Assembly: GCA_903844815.1 (NCBI GenBank)
Contig: CAIMVD010000280.1
Coordinates: forward strand, 1 to 44,151
Source: an uncultured Bacteroidota bacterium
GTDB lineage: Bacteria > Bacteroidota > Bacteroidia > Bacteroidales > VadinHA17
Reading direction: 5' to 3'
Length of the DNA: 44,151 bases
The notes below the pieces were generated by a model. The model was given only the letters and a program-made list of their open reading frames with translations. It was not told where the DNA came from and did not search any database. The position numbers and the translations under genes were made by a program. Below, piece by piece: positions 12,437-27,001 of this stretch; the stretch's first letter is position 1, and the number at the start of each line of letters is the position of its first letter.

Positions 12437-12477
12437 GCTTGTATGATGATTTTTTACACCTTCTAAAAAAAACAATC

Positions 12478-13791
12478 ATGAACTACACATTTACTTTTTT
12501 AGCCTGCATTATTGCAATTTCTGCTAATGCGCAAAACTACCTTGTATCCTTTACCGGATCAGGTGCATCTTCGACAGTATCGAATGTAAAGGTTGAAAAT
12601 TTAACCCAGGGTACATCTGTGATTCTGAATGAAAACGATGTATTGCGACTCACATTTGCGACGTCAGACTATAAGACACCGGATAATCAATCAAACGGTT
12701 TGAAGATTTACCCAAACCCTATGATTGAAAATTCAACCTTCGAATTTAGCCCGCCTGTACCCGGTGCTGCTACAATATCAGTGATTGATATGACGGGTAA
12801 ATTACTAGTAAAAATGGAAGAAAATTTAGAAAGCTCAACACATTCATACAGGCTTTCTGGATTAAAGAGCGGATTTTATGTAATCAATGTCAGGGGAAAC
12901 ACCTATCATTTAAGCGGCAAACTACTTAGCAAAGGGGATTCAAGGAGTTCCGTATCTCTTGAAAAGGTCAGGCATTCATCCCGGTCAGCTTTTGAGGAAA
13001 CAAAAAAGATAACCCCTAAAGGGATTCTGGCAACGGTTGATATGGCTTATACTCAGGGAGAGAGATTAAAGTTTACAGGAATGACAGGGATATACAGCAC
13101 AATAAAAATGGACATTCCTTCATCAGATAAGACAATTGATTTTGAATTTAGTGCCTGTACTGATGGTGATAATAACAATTATCCCATAGTCAAAATAGGG
13201 ACACAAATCTGGATGGCTGAAAACCTGAAGACAACAAAATACCTGAATACCGATTTAATAGGAACTACATCTTCTCCAAATCTGAATATTTCTAATGAGA
13301 CCACATCAAAATATGAGTGGGCATATAGTGGAATTGAAACAAATGTGGCCACTTACGGGAGATTATATACATGGTTTACAGCAACTGACAGCAGGAGTGT
13401 TTGTCCGTCAGGCTGGCATCTGCCGACCCTGGCAGAATATTTATCCCTCTTTGATTACCTTGGAAAGAACGGTTATGGTTATGAGGGTGTTTCGTGGAAA
13501 ACGGCTAAATCAATCAGCTCCTCTTCCGTTTGGACCACGAGTCTGTTAGCAGGATCCCCGGGCAACGACATGGCATCCAACAATGCCAGCGGATTTACGG
13601 CGCTTCCCGCCGGTTATCGTTCTGACTACGGATGGTACGCCGGTATTGGAACTAAGTCATATTGGTGGTGTTCTTCCGAATCGGGTGGTTTTGGCGATGT
13701 AACCGCCCTGAATTACGATCAACAGGGATTGGGAATCTCAGGTGTTAGTAAGAAGTATGGTTGTCCCATCCGTTGTTTAAAGAATTTGTAA
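12478..13791 (+). CDS. Secreted FISUMP-domain protein with internal T9SS-like sorting domain
   Basis: The ATG at 12478 starts a signal peptide (MNYTFTFLACIIAISANAQ), making a 437-residue precursor; a longer reading from 12439 would bury it. Residues about 74-155 (GLKIYPNPM to YVINVRGNTYHLSGKLL) look like a Por secretion (T9SS type A) fold, but at the N-terminal side rather than the C-terminus. This arrangement occurs in many Bacteroidota FISUMP proteins. Residues about 228-437 are the FISUMP domain, with its hallmarks IGTQIWMAENLKT, YGRLYTW, CPSGWHLPT, SGFTALPAGYR, YWWCSSE and CPIRCLKN. The domain is thought to bind or present on the cell surface, but its ligand is unknown. Confidence 0.88.
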   Translation: MNYTFTFLACIIAISANAQNYLVSFTGSGASSTVSNVKVENLTQGTSVILNENDVLRLTFATSDYKTPDNQSNGLKIYPNPMIENSTFEFSPPVPGAATISVIDMTGKLLVKMEENLESSTHSYRLSGLKSGFYVINVRGNTYHLSGKLLSKGDSRSSVSLEKVRHSSRSAFEETKKITPKGILATVDMAYTQGERLKFTGMTGIYSTIKMDIPSSDKTIDFEFSACTDGDNNNYPIVKIGTQIWMAENLKTTKYLNTDLIGTTSSPNLNISNETTSKYEWAYSGIETNVATYGRLYTWFTATDSRSVCPSGWHLPTLAEYLSLFDYLGKNGYGYEGVSWKTAKSISSSSVWTTSLLAGSPGNDMASNNASGFTALPAGYRSDYGWYAGIGTKSYWWCSSESGGFGDVTALNYDQQGLGISGVSKKYGCPIRCLKNL

Positions 13792-21002: not shown

Positions 21003-24000
21003 TCAATAGAACTGCAGCTGTATGGCTATATTCCCCGAGCCGTATTGTGTTCCGAGGTAAGTAGTGGTAACTATTGTCTGCTGTTGCGTAACAGGATCAA
21101 TGGTGCCGGATCTTTTAGTATAGGTCAGACTCTTTATAGTTTTTTGAGTCTCAGCCGTGCTGAAAGTATGGAAGAAATATCTTGACCAGTCGCCCGGCAC
21201 TCCGGAATAAGGAGTAAGCCAAACATTGCCCAGGACTATCTCAATTTCCACGGTTCTGACAGGATCAGTCGGTAAGTACTGAAGGTTTTCAAGGTGATGG
21301 ATCGTCATGTCGCCCTTGACAAAATTGTATGAAATTGTCTGGGTTACGGATTTCGACCCGGCAATAGTCTCAATCGTTTCATCACCTGTCTGAATATTGT
21401 AAGAGACCTGACCAAAATACTGGGGAAATTTACGTATAGGTCCGGCCGCGTTATCCAGGATACCCAGGCTCTCAGTAACGCCATCAGTCAGCCTGTGGAT
21501 CGTTAAATCCGTGGGTATGAGATACCCGTTGTAAATGCTATAGAAACCTATCGCGTCCCAGTAGTGAAGGTCGGGAACAGGGTAGTATGCAATATCATAG
21601 TTTTCTTCAAAGGTCTTCGATTTATCCTTATTAATGAAAAGCAGGTAAACTTTATCTTTGTTCTCTTCTATGTTCGGAACTTTATGCGGTTCGATAATGA
21701 AACCTGTGCTGTCCTGATCGGAGAGGTCCTCATAAATCATCCTTTTCGTATCACTGTCGTACCGGCAAAGGTAAACCTTGTTATTGGGATCACCGGCAAT
21801 TTTGCGTTTCAGCCTGACTATGGTTTTTTCCATTGTCAGGTTATAAATCTGCAACATTTTTGTTGACAAGTATGGAAGAGACAGCTTGATGTTCTCTTTT
21901 TGGGAAGGCTTGAGCTGACCGGATTTAAAGGTTACATATCTGCTCTGCATGAAGGAAACTGGTGCAAGAAAGAAATATTTAAGAGGATCCTCTCCTGCTT
22001 TTTTATCCAGAAGAGTAAACTTCTCATTTCCGCCTTCGATGAGGTATTTGACAAAATTTTCATACTCGTCGCCGACAGTCGATTTCAGATGTGTGGCAAT
22101 GAAGCCGTCGAGATAACTGAGCCAGCTGCCCAGATATGATGTTTCCCTAAGCAGCTCTTCAGGCTTGAGTTTGTCACCCGGCCTGTAACTCCGCATGTAG
22201 TGGAGGAAAGTACTTGCTGTATTTGCATCAGCACTGTTTACTGTCCTTTTACATATAAGTGGAACATTTGAAAAATCATCCCATGAGGCAGCCAGCAGAT
22301 CAAAGATTGACTTGTTTCCTCCTGAGGCCAGAATGGTCTGATTGAGAAGCTGTTCCGGCTCGGCTGCAGGCATTTCCGTGTCATTCCACACCATCCTGTC
22401 GGCCAGAGGTGCCGTAGCTTCCTGCCAGAAATAATTCTGGGTCAGCATAATCATATAGTAATCCTGGGTATAATGAAAATACTCATGAGCAAGGGATGTT
22501 TTTAGCTCTGAGCGATCGGTGGCGAACATGGGATCGACATACATATATCCCCGTAGTGCCAGATAGCCGCCATAATCCAGACTCCCGGCTGCACTGGCAC
22601 CAGTTATACTCCCCAGATATACGTTGAAACGCAGACCGGGAGTTTCAAGACCGAGACCATCGAATTTATTCATAATATCGGTCAGGTAGCCGGCTATGTC
22701 CTGAGCCATCAGGAGATCTCCGTCTTTGTCGGGATCGGTGTTGGGATTATACCACGATTCCGGTTTATTCTTATAGCTGGTTTCGTAAGCCTGGTAAAAG
22801 TTATCCTCCGAACCAGTACGGTACCTGTAAATAACGTTTACCCTTCCAAAGGTCATAATGTGAGTGTAAGAACCATGCGCGTACTCAAACCATCCAAGCT
22901 TGGTGAGATGGTTCGTTTCAAAGACCAGGGAGCTGTCTTCGAGACTCATTCGTGAGCTGCCGAACGGAACCCATTTGCCGTTGGCCTCATCGTACCATAC
23001 CGCCCTGAATCTGTCGATGTCAAGGGCATTAAACTTATCTTTAAAATTCTTAAGCCTGATAAACAATGGAGCATCAAATACGGAGCCGAAACTTAAATTA
23101 ACATCGTACACTGTTCCTGCAATGACCGAATCGGGAAAAGCAGGCGGGTCATTGAGCTTCTTGATGGTAAGTTTGAAATCTTTTTGAGTGAGGTTGGCAG
23201 GTATCGTTATCTCAATGCTGTCGCGTGAAACCGTGACAGACTTATTCCTTACATTAAGAAGTGTATCGGTAACCTGAATGCCATACGGTTTAATTTTTAC
23301 CGTATCGCTTGGCACCGGATTACAATCGCCATCCTTTATCATATAACGGAACATCATTGGGGTTACCGGTTCCAGGAGTACCTTGTTGCCGGCGACAGAT
23401 ACCTTGTTCTGTTTAAGTGATGCGTTGTTTAAGTTTGTATTTACATCGACCCATTCTCCGGGATTGTATGATGCCTGCCATGAAATTGTTCCTCTTATAC
23501 CGTCGGCCGGAAATAACATGAGGATATTGTCGCTGATGCCCTGGTTGCCGGCTGTTCGTGAACTTAAAACCGTACCATTCTCGAACGGATCAACGGAGGC
23601 TGACTTAATAATCAGGGGTTTGGTCTGAAGTTCAAGTAGTTTCCTGTACTTTTTATTTGTAATGCGGCAGGTGTAGCTCCCTTCATTCTCCTTTTTGAAT
23701 GACTTGAAACTCAGTACAGGCCCTTCCTGAACGAGATCACTACCCTTGTACCACTTGTATTGGTCGGCATAATGCGACATCCTGCTAATTTTCCGGATAT
23801 CAACCCCGGCAGAATCGCCTTCGGGGAATTTCATGATTGAATCCGTCAGCGGAACAATAGACTGGTCCCAGTAGCTGAACTCGTAATCATCCGTGAAGAT
23901 CGTATCGTCGGGCATCATTGACGATGCAATATCATCGAAGATAAATTTATTATTTCTGATATCCAGCGACATCAGGTTAAGATGGCTGATCGGGGGAATA

Positions 24001-26414
24001 GGCCCCGAGAGCAGATTCCTGTTAATATACAACTGCTTCAGACCGGTAAGGAAACAGAAGGTAACAGGAATTCTCGACAGTTTGTTTTCCCTTATTTCAA
24101 GGGTTTCGATTTTGGTAAGGTTTTCAAAAGAAGCCGGAAGATCCGAAAGAAGGTTGTTATTCATCAGGAGTGATGACAACCTGGTCATCTTGCCGAATGA
24201 TTCGGGCAATGATTCAAGTCTGTTGGCTGAAAGATTCATATCCCACAATGCCGGCATATCCCCGAGGTCAGGTATCAGGTCAATTTTATTATTGTCAAGC
24301 AACAGCCTGTAAAGCTTTGTAAGTTTCGAAACGGAGGCGGGAATAGTGGTGATTTCATTATTGGCCGCTTCGATTGACTGCAGCAGGGTGAGCCTTCCAA
24401 TGCTGTCGGGCAAACCTGTGAACTTGTTATTGCTTAGATAAAGGCTTGTCAGTTTTACAGAATTGCAGACAGCGTCGGGCAGTTTACCTTCAAAGCTGTT
24501 TTCTGAAATATAAAAATTCTGGAGATTTGTCCAGGTACCTGTAGAAGCAGGGAAAGATCCTGAGAACTTGTTCTTAGCGATATCAAAGTCTTTTATTAAT
24601 GTCAGGTACCCAATTTTATCCGTAAGGCTTCCGGTTAGGAGATTGTCCCGAACGGAAAAGGTTAACAGTTTTGTGAGGTTTCCTATTCCCGGAGAGATAG
24701 TTCCTGTCAGCTGGTTTATCGCAAGGTTCAGGTCGGTCAGACCTGTCATATTGTAAATCACATCCGGGATACTTCCCGTGAGCTTGTTATCCGACAGATT
24801 AATAGTCGTCAGGTTTGTCAGCTTGCTTATTTCCACAGGTATTGTTCCCGTGAGCTTATTCCTGAAGATCTGAAGTTCTCTCAGGTTTGCTAGATTACCC
24901 GTCTCTGGTGGAATAGTCCCCGAAAGGGAGTTGTTTCCAAGGTTAAGGATGTAAAGCGAGGAGAGATTGCCAATCTCTTTTGGGATACTTCCCGTGATCT
25001 GGTTGGTCCCAAGGTTAAGCTCGTGAAGCATCGACAGGTTGCCAATTTCCTTTGGCAGTGTACCCGATAAGGTGTTCCATGAAAGATCAAGACGAATCAC
25101 TCTCCCGCCAACTGCAGTTACTCCATACCATTTATTGACAGGGGTCTGAAGCCAACCCGTTCTGTTTTTCCATTGATCACCGTTTGTGCTTTTGTAAATG
25201 GCGACAAGTGCAAGGGAGTCTTGTTCATTTGTTTTAATGGGCTTAGGTGATAACCCCACGATTGCCGATCCCTTCATGAAAAAATCATACCCGCCGGCAG
25301 CCTGGAATCCCTCAAGTAAATAATATCCGTCGCTCATCCCCGACCATCCGAAATTCAGATGGAAATAATTATTGTCAAATCCGTCGCATACAACTGTGTG
25401 CCCGAATGACTGATCCGGACTTGAACCTGGTCCAAGCGCATAAAAAACTGGTCGGTTCGAGGCTATTTCATCTCTGATGATCTGATAAAACAACTCAATA
25501 TTGGATCTGAAATCACCCCATTCTATGTAATCAGCATTATTGTACCTGAAGTAGGATTGAAATGCAGTAATCGCGTTGCCAATGCTCGCCCCGCTCATAA
25601 GTAATCCGTTATAGGAGAGATAGCCATAGCCCATATTGACACCCACGCCGCAGTGATACAGAAGCTTGCTAATAGCGGCATTCGGAGAGGAGGGTGAACC
25701 CGGCATCTCGTTCCACTTATAGGTTGTATTTCCGAAATCGGCATTCAGCACCCCGTATTTTGATGTATAGCTGTTTGACCCTGTTCCCGATGAAGGGTAT
25801 TTGAAGTATCTCATAATCTGTCCCATGGTGACAGCAACACAACCAGCGGGAGCCCTTCTGTTTAAAGAGGCATCTAAGGGGCATTCGAGATCATAGAAGC
25901 CGCTTTGATTCCATCGGATTGTATCTTTCTCAAGGAGGGGAGCAACAGCTAAAGTTGTATTTTTTGCTGACATGGTTCCTGAAACAGGCAGCCTGAAATC
26001 TGTTGCCTGCTCGTAGTAATTCCTGAGTATTTTCAGTGCCTGATTGTTTGAGGAAGTGTCGATTCTCCCTTTGTCAGAATAGGCGGTAACAAACATATCG
26101 CCATTAACATCTGCAACTATTGCGAAACCAGAGCCGGCATCCTGGAAAAAATAGAGCTTGTTTCTAACAGTATCGGGAGACTGGTAGACCTCATTCAGTG
26201 AAGAAGTACTTTTTTGAACTTTCTTCCCGGCGAATTTTGAAGAAAGAAACTGTTCGGCAATGGCTTTAGCCCTGATGCTTGCATCTTCCTGGCCATATAA
26301 CCCGGATACGGCTGATGAAAAGATCAGGATAATGAACGATAGCAGAAACGGAGATATTGCCTGAATGGAGCAAGGAAGATTTTTCTTCAGCTGAGTAGTA
26401 ATTGTTCCTTTCAT
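21003..26414 (-). CDS. Giant secreted protein: C10 peptidase, LRRs, Ig-like, HEXXH domain
   Basis: The 1803-residue protein has a signal peptide (cleaved near SGLYGQ, about residue 42). Domain order by eye: a streptopain-type propeptide (45-180); a C10 cysteine peptidase with nucleophile Cys192 (APAGCVAVTMGQ), His339 (FGHTVVCDGF) and FHLNFGWSG; about 17 leucine-rich repeats (408-820), the first nine of the 24-residue plant type (SGTIPxEIGNL), then 23-residue bacterial units; an Ig-like domain (about 875-935); beta-rich linkers; and a domain with LAHEYFHYTQ, the zinc motif HEYFH at 1310-1314, plus EATA with Glu1332 as a possible third ligand. It ends GNIAIQLQFY with no T9SS tail. The start ATG overlaps the stop of the upstream gene (ATGA), so translation is coupled. 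Two protease types in one chain is unusual. The second peptidase is inferred from the motif only. Confidence 0.85.
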   Translation of the reverse strand: MKGTITTQLKKNLPCSIQAISPFLLSFIILIFSSAVSGLYGQEDASIRAKAIAEQFLSSKFAGKKVQKSTSSLNEVYQSPDTVRNKLYFFQDAGSGFAIVADVNGDMFVTAYSDKGRIDTSSNNQALKILRNYYEQATDFRLPVSGTMSAKNTTLAVAPLLEKDTIRWNQSGFYDLECPLDASLNRRAPAGCVAVTMGQIMRYFKYPSSGTGSNSYTSKYGVLNADFGNTTYKWNEMPGSPSSPNAAISKLLYHCGVGVNMGYGYLSYNGLLMSGASIGNAITAFQSYFRYNNADYIEWGDFRSNIELFYQIIRDEIASNRPVFYALGPGSSPDQSFGHTVVCDGFDNNYFHLNFGWSGMSDGYYLLEGFQAAGGYDFFMKGSAIVGLSPKPIKTNEQDSLALVAIYKSTNGDQWKNRTGWLQTPVNKWYGVTAVGGRVIRLDLSWNTLSGTLPKEIGNLSMLHELNLGTNQITGSIPKEIGNLSSLYILNLGNNSLSGTIPPETGNLANLRELQIFRNKLTGTIPVEISKLTNLTTINLSDNKLTGSIPDVIYNMTGLTDLNLAINQLTGTISPGIGNLTKLLTFSVRDNLLTGSLTDKIGYLTLIKDFDIAKNKFSGSFPASTGTWTNLQNFYISENSFEGKLPDAVCNSVKLTSLYLSNNKFTGLPDSIGRLTLLQSIEAANNEITTIPASVSKLTKLYRLLLDNNKIDLIPDLGDMPALWDMNLSANRLESLPESFGKMTRLSSLLMNNNLLSDLPASFENLTKIETLEIRENKLSRIPVTFCFLTGLKQLYINRNLLSGPIPPISHLNLMSLDIRNNKFIFDDIASSMMPDDTIFTDDYEFSYWDQSIVPLTDSIMKFPEGDSAGVDIRKISRMSHYADQYKWYKGSDLVQEGPVLSFKSFKKENEGSYTCRITNKKYRKLLELQTKPLIIKSASVDPFENGTVLSSRTAGNQGISDNILMLFPADGIRGTISWQASYNPGEWVDVNTNLNNASLKQNKVSVAGNKVLLEPVTPMMFRYMIKDGDCNPVPSDTVKIKPYGIQVTDTLLNVRNKSVTVSRDSIEITIPANLTQKDFKLTIKKLNDPPAFPDSVIAGTVYDVNLSFGSVFDAPLFIRLKNFKDKFNALDIDRFRAVWYDEANGKWVPFGSSRMSLEDSSLVFETNHLTKLGWFEYAHGSYTHIMTFGRVNVIYRYRTGSEDNFYQAYETSYKNKPESWYNPNTDPDKDGDLLMAQDIAGYLTDIMNKFDGLGLETPGLRFNVYLGSITGASAAGSLDYGGYLALRGYMYVDPMFATDRSELKTSLAHEYFHYTQDYYMIMLTQNYFWQEATAPLADRMVWNDTEMPAAEPEQLLNQTILASGGNKSIFDLLAASWDDFSNVPLICKRTVNSADANTASTFLHYMRSYRPGDKLKPEELLRETSYLGSWLSYLDGFIATHLKSTVGDEYENFVKYLIEGGNEKFTLLDKKAGEDPLKYFFLAPVSFMQSRYVTFKSGQLKPSQKENIKLSLPYLSTKMLQIYNLTMEKTIVRLKRKIAGDPNNKVYLCRYDSDTKRMIYEDLSDQDSTGFIIEPHKVPNIEENKDKVYLLFINKDKSKTFEENYDIAYYPVPDLHYWDAIGFYSIYNGYLIPTDLTIHRLTDGVTESLGILDNAAGPIRKFPQYFGQVSYNIQTGDETIETIAGSKSVTQTISYNFVKGDMTIHHLENLQYLPTDPVRTVEIEIVLGNVWLTPYSGVPGDWSRYFFHTFSTAETQKTIKSLTYTKRSGTIDPVTQQQTIVTTTYLGTQYGSGNIAIQLQFY

Positions 26415-27001
26415 GGCACGATGATCTTTTTGTGTCCTATTAATATGCCTTTGCTATCCTCAAATTTCAGAAAATAGATTCCTGCAGGGAAATTAATCTC
26501 CTGACGCATTTCACCCGAAATCTGTTTTCTTAGGATTACCGTGCCAAGGTTATTGACAATTGTGAGGTTCACTGGTCCGGGAATGTCATGCAGATCTATT
26601 GTAAGATTCCCGGATACAGGAACCGGATAAACTGCGATGTCGCTAAGCTTTCCGGTGATATCTTCAATTCCGACCGTTGCTGCAGTAGTGCTGCAATTGT
26701 TTGCATCTTTTACCACCAGCCTGTAAATTCCGCCACTAACCGTTTCTGTAATCTCTACAACAGGTTTAGTTCCGATCACTTCATTATTCCTGTACCAGTA
26801 GAACTGATAAGGATCCTTTCCTCCTGTAATGCTGATATTCTCTCCCAGTACAAGGGAGTTCCCTGAATGTGAAACAAGCGAATCGAGGAGGTTTATTTCA
26901 AGTATTCCGGGCTGATCAGCCATCACCTTCACGGAAGTTTGCGAGTATCCCGTGACGGGGGGAATAAAAGCCATCAATATAATTAGTAAATCTTTTCTCA
27001 T
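26411..27001 (-). CDS. Small secreted Ig-like protein with T9SS type A sorting tail
   Basis: The 196-residue precursor begins with a signal peptide (MRKDLLIILMAFIPPVTGYSQ). An Ig/PKD-like domain follows (about 30-110; SITGGKDPYQFYWYRNN and YRLVVKDANNCS). Residues about 115-196 form a type A T9SS sorting domain (IAVYPVPVSGNLTIDL, VNNLGTVILRKQ, FPAGIYFLKFEDSKG, ending KKIIVP). It should be exported by type 9 secretion and anchored or released at the surface. It is the first gene of a pair: its TGA overlaps the ATG of the 1803-residue peptidase by four bases. It may be the secretion or anchoring partner of that protein, which itself has no tail. Confidence 0.85.
   Translation of the reverse strand: MRKDLLIILMAFIPPVTGYSQTSVKVMADQPGILEINLLDSLVSHSGNSLVLGENISITGGKDPYQFYWYRNNEVIGTKPVVEITETVSGGIYRLVVKDANNCSTTAATVGIEDITGKLSDIAVYPVPVSGNLTIDLHDIPGPVNLTIVNNLGTVILRKQISGEMRQEINFPAGIYFLKFEDSKGILIGHKKIIVP

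Follow-up and report, generated by a model that had tools for sequence, protein, structure and literature searches.

A recurrent Bacteroidales protein combining a C10 cysteine peptidase, plant-receptor-like leucine-rich repeats and a gluzincin-like domain, encoded beside a small protein with a type IX sorting tail

The locus and its features

Contig CAIMVD010000280.1 (assembly GCA_903844815.1), from an uncultured Bacteroidota bacterium of the VadinHA17 lineage, was analysed over its positions 1 to 44,151, a stretch referred to here as the window. On the minus strand, an open reading frame (ORF) at 21003-26414 with an ATG start encodes a protein of 1803 amino acids, called here the big protein. 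Its chain runs from a C10 cysteine peptidase domain through an arm of leucine-rich repeats (LRRs) and a weak immunoglobulin (Ig)-like region to a gluzincin-like metallopeptidase domain. The gene directly upstream encodes a partner of 196 amino acids that ends in a sorting tail of the type IX secretion system (T9SS), and its stop overlaps the start of the big gene by 4 bases. Taken singly, the domains are all of known kinds; it is the conserved placement of cysteine-protease and zinc-protease domains around a plant-receptor-like LRR arm that is unusual. The features of both genes are listed below, where members are the relatives described in a later section.

21003..26414, minus strand: the 1803-residue C10-LRR-Ig-gluzincin protein (ORF list, translation, Pfam, residue count)
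26292..26414, minus strand: signal-like hydrophobic N-terminal segment, about residues 1-41 (read by eye; its end is an estimate)
26004..26273, minus strand: I69 (Spi-type) inhibitor/propeptide domain, residues 48-137 (Pfam)
25320..25913, minus strand: C10 peptidase domain, residues 168-365 (Pfam PF01640, E 3.1e-46)
25839-25841 and 25398-25400, minus strand: codons of the C10 catalytic pair, Cys192 and His339
23904..25229, minus strand: LRR N-cap and 17 leucine-rich repeats, residues 396-837
23640..23765, minus strand: Ig-like region, residues 884-925 (Ig_2 PF13895, E 7.8e-4, weak)
22830..23231, minus strand: beta domain preceding the metallopeptidase, residues 1062-1195 (model strands 5-135); presumably similar to ZU5-type domains
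22032..22808, minus strand: gluzincin-like metallopeptidase domain, residues 1203-1461 (limits taken from the model)
22473..22487, minus strand: HEYFH, residues 1310-1314 (HEXXH in 32/32 members)
22419..22421, minus strand: Glu1332, proposed third zinc ligand (kept in 32/32 members)
21576..21959, minus strand: beta-sandwich after the metallopeptidase, residues 1486-1613 (model strands 428-551)
21009..21356, minus strand: beta domain at the C-terminal end, residues 1687-1802 (model), in which family searches recognised no T9SS sorting tail
26411..27001, minus strand: the 196-residue partner, made up of a signal-like start, a single middle domain and a type A T9SS sorting tail (Pfam, NCBIfam)
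26420..26632, minus strand: T9SS sorting tail of the partner (PF18962, E 4.5e-9; TIGR04183, E 7.9e-9; located identically in the genome-wide tail search)

The protease domains and the repeat arm

A first-pass annotation of this DNA had proposed a complete C10 dyad in Cys192 and His339. Both residues are in place, and the C10 profile reaches 158.5 bits against a curated Pfam cut-off of 26 bits; a script confirmed all six residues named in this work (Cys192, His339, His1310, Glu1311, His1314 and Glu1332) at their positions. By phmmer the C10 part matches interpain A and SpeB, and superposition of the N-terminal structure model brings up the SpeB zymogen together with plant receptor LRRs. Pfam also recovered the I69 propeptide domain, which the annotation had missed. 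Judging from the likeness of the model to the SpeB zymogen, this propeptide may hold the C10 site shut.

The repeat arm was described in the same annotation as about 17 LRRs that shift from a 24-residue to a shorter form. A script count agrees: after removal of one false start at residue 779, 17 repeats begin between residues 439 and 814, with nine spacings of 24 followed by seven of 22 or 23. Several Pfam LRR models match this part, and the LRR-protein matches in NCBIfam lie far under their cut-offs. The Ig-like domain said to follow the LRRs holds up only as a sub-threshold match, which is present at residues 884-925 but scores 20.1 bits against the Pfam cut-off of 27.

Turning to the C-terminal half, the segment LAHEYFHYTQ contains the only HEXXH in the big protein, and Glu1332 lies 18 positions beyond His1314, with 17 residues between them. 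Conservation agrees with its reading as gluzincin-like, the motif and the Glu being kept in 32/32 members. A chance motif is ruled out by that conservation together with 20,000 shuffles of the big protein, in which any HEXXH arose in 0.85% and HEXXH with a Glu after 17-19 residues in 0.13%. In the structure model HEXXH and Glu1332 sit on two consecutive helices, and when the C-terminal model was realigned, the 50 solved structures among the matches listed were all M1 or M4 zinc peptidases.

The last ~880 residues have no Pfam family match over the cut-off, and a PDB sequence search with residues 1139-1803 returned one row at E 0.47, which is not credible. Residues 1261-1344 of the window protein weakly match the MXAN_6640 putative metalloprotease family NF045524 (20.2-23.3 bits versus 140), and the same weak match over the HEXXH part occurs in 6/29 members at E up to 0.01. 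The number of residues between the second His and the Glu is 18 in M1 peptidases and 19 in M4 peptidases. The M4 spacing is absent here, with 17 residues in 31/32 members and 18 in one. GXMEN, which we take to be the exopeptidase motif of M1 aminopeptidases, is found in 0/32 members.

Relatives, the partner and mosaic history

The C-terminal half was found in 3/98 relatives, the window's own genome included, and an alignment of these three sequences was used to scan the species-genome collection, giving 28 loci (labelled L). Two of them, L020 and L026, are the two query genomes again; L006 and L007 duplicate these and were counted once. According to record titles, the loci belong to Bacteroidales, Paludibacter, Marinilabiliaceae, Prolixibacteraceae, Bacteroidetes and similar groups. 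Records whose titles name strains of Anaerophaga thermohalophila, Marinilabilia rubra, Breznakibacter xylanolyticus and Plebeiobacterium marinum show the same domain order, which rules out an assembly artefact or a private fusion. The annotation's claim that a C10 peptidase, plant-like LRRs and a gluzincin-type domain share one chain is supported, and their order is found again in relatives.

HEXXH and Glu1332 are invariant in the window protein and the 28 loci (29/29). The C10 pair is kept in all 22 aligned members that cover it and in 3/3 further members, or 25/25 readable in frame; the other seven of the 29 comprise L013 and six members truncated where a contig ends. In L013 the C10 part lies in a separate upstream ORF in the same frame. 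Because the scan patterns were built around LAHE..H and TQDYY, finding HEXXH in these 28 loci is in part a product of the search; the patterns did not include the Glu. A motif-free query, consisting of the alignment of residues 1350-1580 only, matched 5/393 genomes of the order, namely the window's own, one already known (G086) and three new ones. The new members are full-length ORFs of 1730-1818 amino acids with the C10 signature, HEXXH and the Glu, and since the query excluded the motif, the search bias is removed for these three of the 32.

The big-protein family is rare. Among 395 genomes across the phylum only the window's own genome matched, and the C-terminal half has no match among plasmids. 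No protein demonstrably without the C10 part was seen to carry the C-terminal module, the six contig-cut members being uninformative. C10 peptidases as such are widespread in the order (197/295 genomes). Among the matches listed, many C10 frames there span about 600-1000 amino acids and some reach 2754, and since such long frames exist, other C10 fusions may occur as well. The only other C10 match of the window's own genome (L002/L008, at G000:C318:24738-25184) is broken up into several short frames and has a T9SS tail match close by.

The tailed partner was likewise absent from the first-pass annotation. In the window its tail exceeds both the PF18962 and the TIGR04183 cut-offs, and an intact homologue is found in 23/25 loci having upstream DNA. 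Twenty-two of the 23 adjoin the big ORF (in L013, its C10 ORF), one ORF intervenes in L034, and the L044 partner, also upstream, overlaps the big gene by 19 bases. Of the remaining two loci, L017 has no partner upstream, and L028 holds an eroded remnant (L028:1214-1372, the C-terminal part, interrupted by one stop) immediately upstream of an open big gene. The partner model was built without four of the 22 upstream ORFs, which were wrong picks (L013, L017, L028, L034). Since 18 of the 23 strong matches were included in the model, they match by construction; the independent matches are L013, L034, L042, L043 and L044. Five weaker matches (E 5e-11 to 6e-6), in ORFs of 258-1089 amino acids, were treated as other sorting-tail proteins.

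TIGR04183 is detected in 23/23 partners (E up to 0.05) and PF18962 in 22/23 (E up to 0.01); examined singly, L026 falls just under the tail cut-offs, and L043, L044 and L019 exceed that of TIGR04183. The middle domain matches the SprB repeat in 4/23 homologues and Ig_2 in 1/23. Apart from these and the tails, the 23 partners gave only a few weak unrelated matches and no inhibitor family. Further upstream, a gene related to L026:3050-4126 precedes the partner in 15/25 loci, L026 included. Three examined copies of this gene type encode BACON and FGE-sulfatase domains, and L026:3050-4126 is distantly like PorK/GldK (64.6 versus 350 bits). At this search sensitivity the window shows no relative of the gene, and several loci are too short to be informative.

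No T9SS sorting tail was recognised on the big protein. Family searches at E up to 0.01 gave 0/29 for the C-terminal halves, four of which are cut by a contig end and 21 of which are pieces 2-15 residues short. The partner's own tail model, run against 25 complete big-protein ends, reached a best E of 0.029 and no sorting tail, and the whole big proteins of L017, L028 and L043 also have none. The genome of the window carries SprA and 79 sorting-tail matches. Elsewhere in the window, at 12439-13788 (TTG start uncertain), a T9SS tail match lies at residues 90-159 of 450, before a Fib_succ_major domain and not at the C-terminus.

The domains do not appear to have travelled together throughout. 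In FastTree trees of four segments from 20 members, any two trees have 4-8 of 17 splits in common and contradict each other in 2-6 supported ones, so that a clean joint inheritance of all domains is not seen. Domain distances, taken from 20 complete members, include a mean identity of 42% over residues 1200-1500. L032 and L018 are 57-77% identical up to about residue 1147, 29-44% over window residues 1148-1447 and 40-55% thereafter; over 1148-1447, L032 is 42-58% identical to L015, L016 and L019. The metallopeptidase cassette of L032 may therefore have been exchanged within a fixed scaffold, a provisional reading because it concerns one case and simple trees.

Function and known systems

The conserved arrangement looks like a real working machine. 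It is somewhat probable that the big protein is a secreted, latent, two-headed protease, with the partner as its carrier or anchor and the LRRs as its target reader. The big chain would enter the periplasm by its N-terminal signal with the C10 site closed by the I69 propeptide. The small co-encoded partner, bearing the sorting tail, could then carry the chain out or hold it on the surface, and the propeptide would be removed outside the cell. There the plant-receptor-like LRR arm may bind a protein or peptide target, to be cut by the C10 and gluzincin heads, unless one head serves to mature the other. Such an arm points to selective cleavage of a chosen target more than to general digestion. 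A narrower version is put forward tentatively, as falling short of an even chance: a split type IX cargo, in which the tail-less 1,800-residue two-protease chain normally exits in complex with the small adjacent tailed carrier and the metallopeptidase head is a replaceable cassette on a constant C10-LRR scaffold. If the partner does export the big chain, a large enzyme with no tag of its own can pass through type IX secretion as part of a complex.

Several observations favour other readings. No intact partner is present in L017 and L028, and the terminal domain of the big chain is beta-rich, as are known T9SS sorting tails (PMC11285876). Extracellular proteolysis in Flavobacterium columnare fell when either of two peptidase genes lacking recognised tails was deleted (PMC9936825), so that the lack of a tail alone does not exclude other export routes. 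The big chain might accordingly use an unrecognised type IX signal of its own in the last domain, or another route, to leave the cell, with the partner only a co-expressed surface protein. No sorting-tail match in the big proteins and a tailed partner kept in 23/25 loci make this doubtful. On the side of activity, Foldseek's own ranking of the C-terminal model is led by beta-sandwich domains, and the C-terminal module of the window protein has no library family over the cut-off, as might be expected if only the C10 head worked and the C-terminal domain were a binding domain that merely retains the motif. The Foldseek matches include PliG, an enterotoxin C-domain and collagen-binding domains, which probably come from the beta-sandwich at residues 1486-1613. 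Against this reading, loss of activity would usually cost the catalytic Glu, here Glu1311, and HEXXH and the downstream Glu are unchanged in every member while residues 1200-1500 average 42% identity. A C10-only enzyme is considered quite improbable.

The partner could instead inhibit or guard the protease at the surface, in the way that Spi acts on SpeB and that is proposed for the staphostatin-like Bfi proteins with C10 proteases of Bacteroides fragilis. Its adjacency in 23/25 loci would suit such a role, and two of the four B. fragilis C10 genes adjoin and are co-transcribed with staphostatin-like inhibitor genes (PMC2873492). However, the partners match sorting tails, SprB (4), Ig_2 (1) and a few weak unrelated families but no inhibitor family, and an I69 propeptide is already part of the big chain, all of which makes a guard unlikely.

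Compared with the carrier-borne, two-headed protease favoured here, known systems offer partial parallels. A literature search that covered few subscription journals returned no paper recognised as describing this architecture, and none with MXAN_6640. The C10 peptidases SpeB (streptopain), interpain A and, by name, periodontain/PrtT share the C10 domain with the big protein; the eight solved C10 chains matched have 251-380 residues versus 1803. Plant receptor LRR ectodomains such as MIK2 and Leptospira LRR proteins are alike in their LRRs, and the big protein, with no kinase match in Pfam, differs from both in having a protease domain on either side of the repeats. M1 aminopeptidases and M4 thermolysin-like peptidases share HEXXH and the downstream Glu with the big protein and are matched by its realigned C-terminal model; the differences are the 17 residues between the second His and the Glu in 31/32 members, GXMEN in 0/32 and a C-terminal half of the window protein without a Pfam family over the cut-off. 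The MXAN_6640 family is alike by its weak profile match at HEXXH, far under the 140-bit cut-off. The bfp/bfi protease-inhibitor pairs of B. fragilis (PMC2873492) resemble the locus in placing a C10 gene beside a small gene; unlike theirs, the neighbour of the big gene matches no inhibitor family and carries a T9SS sorting tail.
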